Positions 18,984 to 21,625 of a stretch of 64,000 nucleotides of DNA are shown here, piece by piece (the stretch's first letter is position 1; each line of letters begins with the position of its first letter). The stretch is taken from the NCBI GenBank assembly GCA_021819825.1, contig JAKAEZ010000008.1:1-64000 (forward strand), given 5' to 3'. This DNA comes from Planctomycetota bacterium. GTDB taxonomy: Bacteria > Planctomycetota > Phycisphaerae > WQYP01. The position numbers and the translations under genes are program-made. The notes under the pieces are model-generated. The model had not been told where the DNA came from. It did no database searches and saw only the letters and a list, made by a program, of their open reading frames with translations.

Positions 18984-20507
18984 TTATGCCGGAACTAATT
19001 CATCAGCATCATCTTCTTCAGCCAAACCGTAGGCCTCTTCACCGTGAACCGCATGATCTCCAATTCGCAGCATTTCATCCGACATGCGAAGCGGAATAAA
19101 CAGCTTGATCAGGTAGCAGATAGCCGCGGTAACGACAACATTAAGTACGATGATGAAAAGAGCGCCTTCAGCCTGCAACCCAAGCTGCTGCAAGCCACCG
19201 CCGTAAAATAACCCGCCATTGGTGTTCACGCAGGCAAAAGCACTTTCGCCTTGCGTCGTGGCCACCAAGCCCACTAACAGCCCACCGGTCAACCCGGCAA
19301 AGCCGTGGGTATGGATTACTCCCAGGCAGTCATCAACTTTCTTAAATACGCTCATCTTCTGGCTAAGGACATTCATGGTGAACCAGGGGATGGTTCCAGC
19401 GCACAATCCAACCAGCAATGCACCGTATCCGTTGCATACACCGGCAGAAGGAGTGATGGCCACCAGGCCGGCGATCATGCCATTGACGGCACCAAGCACA
19501 GAGGGCTTGCCATACTTGGCATAATCACAGAACATCCAGACCAATAGTGCCATGGCCGTGGCAACGTTGGTATTTAGAACAGCTACCGCGGCATCAGCGT
19601 TGGCCGAATAGGGATCGCCACCATTAAAGCCGTTCCATCCCAGCCATACCATCCCGGCACCGGCCAGAACCATGAGAATGTTATTGGGCTTGAAGTTGGT
19701 GCGATCCTGCTTTAATCGCGGCCCAATAATCGCAGCGGCTGTAAAGGCACTGACGCCCGCAGCCAGGTGAATGACGTAACCACCCGAATAATCAATGACT
19801 CCCTTGAGCGCCAGAAAACCCCCGCCCCACAGGGTAAATGCGCCAATGGCATAAGAAAACGTGAGCCACAGCGGAACGAAAAGCATCCAAGCCACAAAGC
19901 TCATTCGACCAAACAGTGAACCCGCGATCAGGATCAGCGTGATGGCGGCAAACACAAATTGGAAGTAAACCATGGCGGACATGGGAAACGCGGCCGTGGC
20001 GAACGGCGAGGCGGCGTTAGCACCCGGAACAATCGCCTGATTCAATTCATCCATAATACTGGCCACCGGGGTTGGATGACCCACAAATGGGAACCACTGC
20101 GGACCAAAGCCCATGTTGTACGCCCATAGCAACCAGGCGATCAGCACGGCTGCAAAAGCATAAAAGACCATGAACGCAGAGTTAATCGCCCATTTTTTCT
20201 TAACGACACCGCCATACAGGATTGCCAGGCCGGGAATGCTTTGCATCCCCACGATAGTGGCCGCAATTAACTGCCAGCAGGTATCGCCATGATTCAACCA
20301 TGTGGGAGTGGCGTAATTAGGTGCCGCAGGCGCAGATGCCGCCGGGGCTGTTGCAGCAGCTGCCGGCGCGACGGCCGGGGCTGGCGCGGGTGCCGGTGCG
20401 ACCACTTGGGCTAAAAGCGGACCGGCATATAGTGATAACATCGCAAGCAGCGATACAATCGACCACCAGCGCAGCCGCTTCTTTGTAAAAAAGTTGCTCA
20501 AATCCAT
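18984..20507 (-). CDS. amt: Ammonium transporter, Amt family
   Basis: This Amt/Mep/Rh channel has an N-terminal signal peptide and a Pro/Ala-rich linker (residues 20-60), then eleven predicted membrane helices. Family landmarks include GLAILYGG near helix 1, LALKGVIDYSGGYVIHLAAGVSAFTAA (carries the conserved Asp and the ammonium-site region), LVWLGWNGFNGG-like and VIHTHGFAGLTGGLL with its pore histidine. The start is ATG 20507 with GAGGTATTTGAGT upstream. No adjacent glnB/glnK was seen. A sigma-54 promoter about 310 bp upstream suggests nitrogen-limitation control, and a strong terminator follows the gene. Confidence 0.95.
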   Translation of the reverse strand: MDLSNFFTKKRLRWWSIVSLLAMLSLYAGPLLAQVVAPAPAPAPAVAPAAAATAPAASAPAAPNYATPTWLNHGDTCWQLIAATIVGMQSIPGLAILYGGVVKKKWAINSAFMVFYAFAAVLIAWLLWAYNMGFGPQWFPFVGHPTPVASIMDELNQAIVPGANAASPFATAAFPMSAMVYFQFVFAAITLILIAGSLFGRMSFVAWMLFVPLWLTFSYAIGAFTLWGGGFLALKGVIDYSGGYVIHLAAGVSAFTAAAIIGPRLKQDRTNFKPNNILMVLAGAGMVWLGWNGFNGGDPYSANADAAVAVLNTNVATAMALLVWMFCDYAKYGKPSVLGAVNGMIAGLVAITPSAGVCNGYGALLVGLCAGTIPWFTMNVLSQKMSVFKKVDDCLGVIHTHGFAGLTGGLLVGLVATTQGESAFACVNTNGGLFYGGGLQQLGLQAEGALFIIVLNVVVTAAICYLIKLFIPLRMSDEMLRIGDHAVHGEEAYGLAEEDDADELVPA

Positions 20508-20815
20508 ACTCAAATACCTCTTTTTTTTCCAACGATCTTGTCAGTCGCAGCTCTCCTTGTTCACCCGGCACACGCGGGCGCAGAACTGTCTTTTGATTAC
20601 TCATAACAGGGTCATGTAACCAGGATCACCTCCTGACGGGCCTAGCCGGCCCGGAATAAAACCAACATTCGGTTATGGCACCGCCACGCCCATACGGCAC
20701 GCCAATTAAACTAATCCTGCCAAAGAACAGGCGCACCAGCCCCCAAGGCTTCATAACAGAATTAAGGGCGTTCATACTTCTGTCCAGTTAGCCGGCGGGG
20801 GCCAACCGATTACTT
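20508..20815 (-). promoter_or_regulatory. Long amt leader with a consensus Shine-Dalgarno and mini-ORF
   Basis: If transcription starts about 12 nt after the -12 element, amt has a leader of about 310 nt. At 20634-20623 the minus strand reads AGGAGGTGATCC, a full complement of the 16S 3' tail. Seven bases later comes ATG ACC CTG TTA TGA (20615-20601). Its stop overlaps a second ATG (20604) that opens a frame running out of phase into amt. This could be a leader-peptide arrangement or a ribosome-standby site. No known riboswitch was recognised. Confidence 0.45.
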
Positions 20816-20822
20816 TGTGGAT

Positions 20823-20844
20823 TAATGCAATTGCTATGCCACAA
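20823..20844 (-). promoter_or_regulatory. Sigma-54 (-24/-12) promoter for amt
   Basis: The minus strand reads TTGTGGCATAGCAATTGCAT. This is a TGGCAT/TTGCAT pair with the invariant GG and GC exactly 10 bp apart, the RpoN signature. It faces amt. Confidence 0.8.
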
Positions 20845-21172
20845 TGGCGTGCGCTTAGCCATGACGAGGCCCAGGCAGGAAAAAAGGCCTGCGGAATTCT
20901 AAATATCGCCACATTCAAGCGCTTAGATGCGTCGTATAAATCGTTCTCAACCGGGGAGGCCTCTATGCGCCAACTCCACCGACCTGCCTGTTTTATGCAC
21001 AGACAGATGCACGCGCGTTGAATCTGTGGGCACGGCTTTTCCGCGGGGGAATTCCATTCAGGCCACGTTTTCGCCCTTGCCGTAAGATTATTGCCGTGCC
21101 AGGGCAATGATTTAGTTCACAAATCGGTTCAGGAGTCTCTTCTGGAAAGAAATAAGGCCATCGAAATTATTG
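20845..21172. promoter_or_regulatory. Shared upstream region between two sigma-54 promoters
   Basis: About 330 bp separate the two divergent RpoN promoters. RpoN-dependent activators usually bind 80-200 bp upstream, so activator sites for both genes would be expected here. A repeat, TGCACAGACAGATGCAC, near 20997-21013 is one candidate. Open frames crossing this region look random. Confidence 0.4.
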
Positions 21173-21190
21173 TGGCACAGCATTTGCATT
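21173..21190 (+). promoter_or_regulatory. Sigma-54 (-24/-12) promoter for the small membrane protein
   Basis: TGGCACAGCATTTGCATT holds TGGCAC and TTGCA with GG-N10-GC spacing. With flanks, TTGTGGCACAGCATTTGCATTA matches the amt promoter at 20 of 22 positions. The gene begins 90 bp downstream. Confidence 0.85.
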
Positions 21191-21277
21191 ACAATTCATG
21201 TGTGTGGCGGCAACCGTATGTTGCGGCCGAAAATCCGGGCGGGAACGGAGGCTGGCTTACATAAAGGAGTACCAGCG

Positions 21278-21625
21278 ATGCTGCAAATTCCCTTCAAGAT
21301 GGATTGGTCTGAATCTTTTCCAAAGGCAAGAAAAGTCAGAAAAACTCTGGATCCTGAAGCATGGGAGAAATTGGCAAGTCCCAAACTTATCCGGATGCTT
21401 GCCACGGTATTCATTATTCCCGGCTATATTCTGGCGCTACTGATTTTTATCATGGCGTTGTATAACTGGGTTATGGTAGCCCCGCCGCAAATCAGTCCGC
21501 CCTTGATTCACCCTCCCGCCGCGCTAGTACCGGCGGAATCAGGGACCAAATCCGTAGCCTTCGCAGGTAATACGGTCCACGCGACCTTCGCCATGGAAAC
21601 CACCGCAATAGGCCCCGCCAAATAA
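21278..21625 (+). CDS. Single-TM hypothetical protein under a sigma-54 promoter
   Basis: The 115-residue protein starts at ATG 21278, with AAAGGAG eight bases upstream. It has a charged N-terminus (DWSESFPKARKVRKTLDPEAWEKL). One membrane helix follows at about 40-63 (LATVFIIPGYILALLIFIMALYNWVMV), then a Pro/Ala-rich tail. I recognise no family. The near-copy of the amt promoter in front suggests that it is made under the same nitrogen-related conditions. It may be a partner of Amt or an unrelated member of the regulon. Confidence 0.75.
   Translation: MLQIPFKMDWSESFPKARKVRKTLDPEAWEKLASPKLIRMLATVFIIPGYILALLIFIMALYNWVMVAPPQISPPLIHPPAALVPAESGTKSVAFAGNTVHATFAMETTAIGPAK

Follow-up and report, generated by a model that had tools for sequence, protein, structure and literature searches.

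The standard partner of ammonium transporters (Amt) is the P-II protein, and nitrogen control has been little studied in Planctomycetota. In enterobacteria, glnK-amtB, which is under sigma-54 and NtrC, has its ammonium transporter behind a sigma-54 promoter, according to the passages cited (PMC4987338). For zraSR/zraP the same passages describe two divergent sigma-54 promoters under joint control, one of which serves an envelope protein. The cited part of a study on Methanosarcina mazei describes sP36, a protein of 61 aa that acts on the ammonium transporter AmtB1 (PMC10714827). Sigma-54 regulons were predicted over 33 classes in aRpoN-DB; the passages cited here name the ammonia permease family COG0004 for Pseudomonadota and do not mention a divergent small protein (PMC12316311). 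Neither sigma-54 control of amt nor a divergent arrangement of sigma-54 promoters is new. Here we describe a planctomycete locus in which amt and a small membrane-protein gene are transcribed divergently, each from a putative sigma-54 promoter of its own.

The window, i.e. the whole stretch of 64,000 nucleotides that was analysed, originates from a Phycisphaerae MAG of 2.49 Mb in 72 contigs, which is 68% complete. The amt gene (18984..20507, minus strand) encodes an ammonium transporter of 507 aa (Pfam PF00909, E 8.9e-84; above the NCBIfam TIGR00836 cut-off). The other gene (21278..21625, plus strand) has AAGGAG 5' of its ATG and encodes a protein of 115 aa with a single predicted helix, whose family is unassigned. 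The sigma-54 (-24/-12) box of amt, TGGCATAGCAATTGCA, is located at 20826..20841 on the minus strand and ends 318 nt 5' of the amt ATG; that of the small gene, TGGCACAGCATTTGCA, is located at 21173..21188 on the plus strand and ends 89 nt 5' of the ATG. Both boxes show GG-N10-GC spacing and the TGGCAY...TTGC core. A sequence-only reading had reported twin sigma-54 promoters in the interval 20823-21190, nearly identical over 22 bp. The twin 22-mers are real, both with GG-N10-GC (20823-20844, minus strand, on the amt side and 21170-21191, plus strand, on the side of the small gene), so that the left end of the interval stands and the right end was one base too short.

The near-identity itself held for the window's genome, where 20/22 positions agree, but not beyond it: across the 13 genomes with both boxes the identity of the pair ranged from 12 to 20/22, with 17/22 in G006 and 13/22 in G007, two close relatives. 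A recent duplication or inversion could have produced two such similar 22-mers, as the 20/22 identity would suggest. This is contradicted by the range of identities across the genomes and by the flanks, which diverge even in close relatives, and we give such an origin virtually no weight. The conserved part of the paired 22-mers is the sigma-54 core, and the near-identity over 22 bp is local to one genome, attributable to the sigma-54 consensus plus chance.

Chance resemblance of the boxes, with housekeeping promoters driving both genes, was the second explanation considered. When the window was scanned for TGGCACRNNNNTTGCW with up to 2 mismatches, 24 matches were found and 25.9 were expected, so weak matches are as common as in shuffled sequence and uninformative here. 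The sole match without mismatch and the sole match with one mismatch in the window were, however, the two boxes. Exact matches to TGGCAYRNNNNTTGCW in the whole genome numbered 10, compared with 1 for the reversed control, and for six genus members together the totals were 76 and 16. One sigma-70-like site was present at 21166-21194 on the minus strand, which would speak for housekeeping promoters, but the count of such sites was at the level of chance (1 found, 1.3 expected).

The conservation of the boxes also speaks against chance. The small protein was found by sequence search in 14 of 61 genomes (the window's own and relatives), and two further loci, in G014 and G020, were located by their position behind a sigma-54 box. 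All 16/16 small-gene loci had a box within 350 nt, exact in 13 and with one mismatch in 3; shuffles gave an expectation of 0.0 for exact boxes and of 0.13 when up to one mismatch was allowed. For amt, 30 of the 46 genomes that gave an amt match contributed one locus each, and within 1100 nt a box with at most one mismatch was found in 26/30 (21 exact; expected 0.02 exact and 0.64 with at most one mismatch). No such box was found within that distance in G012, G013, G022 and G028. The distance from the box to the amt start is 856-1052 nt in genus g4 and in G011, which makes its link to amt less sure there. Given these numbers we regard chance boxes as very improbable. The boxes and their conservation are directly supported, and at the level of sequence the observation of paired sigma-54 promoters was confirmed as correct and well conserved.

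The pairing of the two genes is conserved as well. In 13/16 genomes the small gene and an amt stand in divergent orientation. In the remaining three (G002, G010 and G011) it stands away from amt and has kept its box: in G002 the neighbours are the same but amt is absent from between them, and the small gene retains the box as well as the two conserved blocks described below, and in G010 and G011 the small gene is located elsewhere. The divergent partner in G001, G014 and G021 is another Amt subfamily, 38-39% identical to the Amt of the window. In genus g2 amt retains its box, and the small gene was not found. A profile search of 298 genomes of the class detected the small protein in at least 13, all within this Phycisphaerae family; the figure is a lower bound, since the search missed G014, G020 and G021.

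To see which parts of the interval are conserved, we used an alignment of six genomes of the genus. At least 12 invariant columns per 17 bp were reached at the amt box, at two blocks midway between the boxes, at an inverted repeat within the small gene's 5' UTR and around its RBS; the box of the small gene peaked at 11. The inverted repeat, GCAAC-CGTAT-GTTGC (21210..21224, plus strand), was considered as a conserved RNA hairpin and rejected, the folding z-scores of the UTR, 14/16 of which lay between -2 and +1.2, being unremarkable. The stretches of the middle blocks start at 20984-20985 and 21015-21016, and we designate the blocks as candidate upstream activator sites 1 (TGCCTGTTTTATGCACA, 20985..21001) and 2 (CGTTGAATCTGTGGGCA, 21016..21032), without assigning a strand; both have 12/17 columns invariant in the six genus members. 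About 31 bp, or some three helical turns, separate them, a spacing known from tandem NtrC sites. Judged from their place and conservation, the two blocks are likely to form a shared enhancer of both promoters.

Outside the genus, de novo motif search in 12 upstream regions returned the palindrome TGCCTA-N5-TAGGCA in 8/8 restarts, with a log-likelihood of 57.6 compared with 29.7 +/- 2.7 (best 36.7) in 60 shuffled sets; the regions are not fully independent because several come from the same genera. Among held-out regions, those of G001 (4/1000 shuffles scoring as well) and of the second G002 amt (1/1000) matched, and the matches in G007 (27/1000, its best site lying elsewhere), G005 (36/1000) and G003 (88/1000) were weak. 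The palindrome was not significant at the urtA region of the genome (257/1000 shuffles as good) or in the window (353/1000). Its best position in the window was the conserved block 20985..21001, which is more than 3 bases off the palindrome. Since the score is not significant there, we infer the enhancer of the window from position and conservation and not from the motif. The perfect palindrome was also tried as a finder of the regulon and discarded: it occurred at 5 places in 4/61 genomes, none beside a sigma-54 box, and the reversed control was commoner. The NtrC box of E. coli, TGCACCAnnnTGGTGCA, is a 17-bp dyad according to the cited part of the source, as is the candidate enhancer here (PMC8743547). 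The half-sites differ, being TGCCTA/TAGGCA in the planctomycete motif and TGCACC/GGTGCA in the E. coli box. With up to 3 mismatches the enterobacterial box had no match between amt and the small gene; in the window it had 4 matches (3.8 expected), none less than 1 kb from the boxes.

The sequence-only reading had also placed the small gene in the same RpoN regulon as amt and called this an unusual direct link. A single copy of rpoN was found in the genome (PF04552, E 1.2e-57), together with two full enhancer-binding proteins: one of REC-AAA-Fis architecture on C53 (group A type) and one of GAF-AAA-Fis architecture on C23 (group B type). The C53 protein scored below the cut-off of the NtrC equivalog TIGR01818 (425.7 vs 558.6 bits). 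Next to the GAF-type activator an ORF (L002 391-831) with repeated peptide units resembles a CRISPR array. With rpoN, activators and conserved boxes present, membership of both genes in the RpoN regulon was supported at the level of sequence, and so was the link between them, although a divergent sigma-54 pair is not unusual per se, as the cited passages on zraSR/zraP indicate (PMC4987338).

Membership in the RpoN regulon is not the same as membership in a nitrogen regulon, because other exact boxes of the genome precede groEL, rpoD, a BBP2 porin gene and an isochorismatase-domain gene; further ones precede urtA and, by eye, an AAA ATPase-like gene, and one falls within a long ORF. Several of these box 16-mers recur in the genus. 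The urtA gene (above the TIGR03407 cut-off; box at L103 4135-4150, plus strand) follows ureF/ureG-like genes, which were named by eye. The cited passages of aRpoN-DB already predict that chaperones of the groEL type are under sigma-54 in Planctomycetota, Phycisphaerae included (PMC12316311). The box of rpoD (L101 4908-4923, minus strand) is an exact one whose 16-mer recurs in genus members; sigma-54 control of this housekeeping sigma factor is possible. Another recurring 16-mer (L099 1961-1976, plus strand) is followed by 600 nt without a clear gene and then by citrate synthase, and this stretch may form a long leader or encode a small RNA. What ties the small gene specifically to amt is their divergent pairing, which is kept in four genera, together with the conserved blocks that separate the two boxes.

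The two promoters could both be real and still answer to different enhancer-binding proteins, with RpoN in common and the signal not. The genomes encode up to 10 enhancer-binding proteins each, the remaining RpoN sites of the genome are functionally mixed, and each middle block could serve one promoter. In two genomes of other genera where the small gene stands apart from amt, its upstream regions scored low for the palindrome (G011 7.5 bits, G010 5.3 bits). However, the divergent pairing is kept in most genomes, the blocks sit in the middle of the interval, and just two strong activators were found in the window's (incomplete) genome. We consider separate activators unlikely, if by far the most serious of the three rival explanations.

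The activator is probably to be sought among three recurring orthologous groups, which are candidates only. In 15 genomes group A was found in 13, group B in 12 and group C in 13; the grouping classified 59 of 69 places and left out the 10 weakest (E 1e-36 to 1e-48). The groups missing from some genomes may reflect assembly gaps. Group C is the only one shared by G011, which also has A, and G020, which also has B. Group C was considered as the activator on the basis of its phyletic pattern and not adopted, as G014 lacks it and G000 shows only A and B; the pattern is not decisive. The distance from the small gene to an enhancer-binding protein gene is about 1.4 kb in G010, where that gene belongs to group C, and about 4.5 kb in G011, where it belongs to group A (L105 2288-3625, minus strand; L106 1-322, minus strand).

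We favour, with good though not complete confidence, the explanation that both boxes are genuine sigma-54 promoters under selection, one driving amt and the other the small gene, and that an NtrC-type activator opens them, most likely under nitrogen limitation. In vivo, the leftward promoter would serve amt, and the rightward one would yield a transcript of the small gene alone, whose product would be a small protein of the inner membrane. Both promoters would be opened by an enhancer-binding protein of the NtrC type, whose binding sites are probably the two middle blocks, so that the small protein would be made together with the ammonium transporter. The conservation of the boxes far above shuffles, RpoN, the enhancer-binding proteins and the box kept apart from amt support this explanation, as do the divergent pairing with either Amt subfamily, the conservation of the middle blocks, the palindrome of the other genera and the box of urtA. 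It is weakened by the palindrome, which is not significant in the window and in its perfect form does not lie beside sigma-54 boxes in relatives, by the RpoN sites unrelated to nitrogen, by genus g2, where amt has its box and the small gene was not found, and by the fact that no activator group was present in 15/15 genomes.

The leader of amt contains a hairpin, CCCG-CGTGTGC-CGGG, with a 7-nt loop (20564..20578, minus strand; 71 nt 5' of the ATG). In the form YCCG-YGYGTNN-CGGR it was found at -67 to -83 in 15/17 leaders of this amt group, and its closing pair changed from C-G to U-A in 4/13 aligned leaders, all of one genus. A Shine-Dalgarno-like GGAGGT lies 5' of the hairpin, followed in genera g2 and g4 by tiny ORFs of about 3-5 codons (by eye). 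No Rfam family matched the hairpin. The possibility of a dispersed RNA element was dropped, since pattern counts over 28 genomes were at the level of the control, and we therefore take it as a single-locus element and a candidate cis-acting RNA. A leader ORF (20317-20604, minus strand) extends across the amt start in a frame different from that of amt; the corresponding stretch of G007 is apparently in frame with amt, and the constraint on it may be coding or at the RNA level.

The small gene encodes a real protein, as indicated by dN/dS values of 0.04-0.37 across 15 pairs of genus members. No match was found in Pfam, NCBIfam, PHROGs, PDB or a plasmid collection. One hydrophobic segment was predicted in 14/14 scored sequences, all from relatives, the window's own protein standing outside this list. 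The N-terminal tail has a net positive charge, which suggests a topology with the N-terminus inside and the C-terminus outside. The AlphaFold2 model shows a single long helix at residues 35-66 (mean pLDDT 60; block mean 92 for residues 51-60) and a low-confidence C-terminal tail. Nine columns are invariant among ten sequences (M1, P5, W10, P15, K19, A33, I46, L55 and A60), and the N-terminus is conserved as PFKxEWxxxxPxARKxR.

The recurrent divergence from amt, the sigma-54 promoter of its own and the association with two Amt subfamilies make the small protein a concrete candidate for an additional partner of Amt. No P-II gene adjoins the amt of the window and none was found in G000. Absence of P-II was considered as the reason for the small protein and dismissed, as P-II was found in 22/24 relatives. 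It is conceivable, though we would not count on it, that Amt in this Phycisphaerae family has in the small protein a partner not described before, a subunit or a regulator, co-made from one enhancer. If so, the protein would be made only alongside Amt, because one enhancer would open both promoters, its conserved and presumably cytoplasmic N-terminus might touch Amt or P-II, and the leader hairpin of amt might add a separate control after the start of transcription.

Sigma-54 control of amt is ordinary; the part worth following is the small protein tied to it. New are the small-protein family tied to amt, the conserved leader hairpin and the candidate enhancer motif, the palindrome being a testable motif for planctomycete sigma-54 activators. 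The locus resembles glnK-amtB in its transporter behind a sigma-54 promoter and differs from it in that no P-II gene adjoins amt and a divergent small gene is present instead. With zraSR/zraP it shares the divergent promoters, but the genes are other ones, and ZraP is, in the cited passages, a periplasmic, zinc-binding protein, whereas the protein of the window is a predicted single-helix membrane protein (PMC4987338). As far as the cited part of the M. mazei study goes, sP36 is likened to it by description only, as a small protein linked to an ammonium transporter and to nitrogen status; sP36 is archaeal and cytoplasmic and relocates to the membrane, whereas the protein described here has a predicted helix of its own (PMC10714827).
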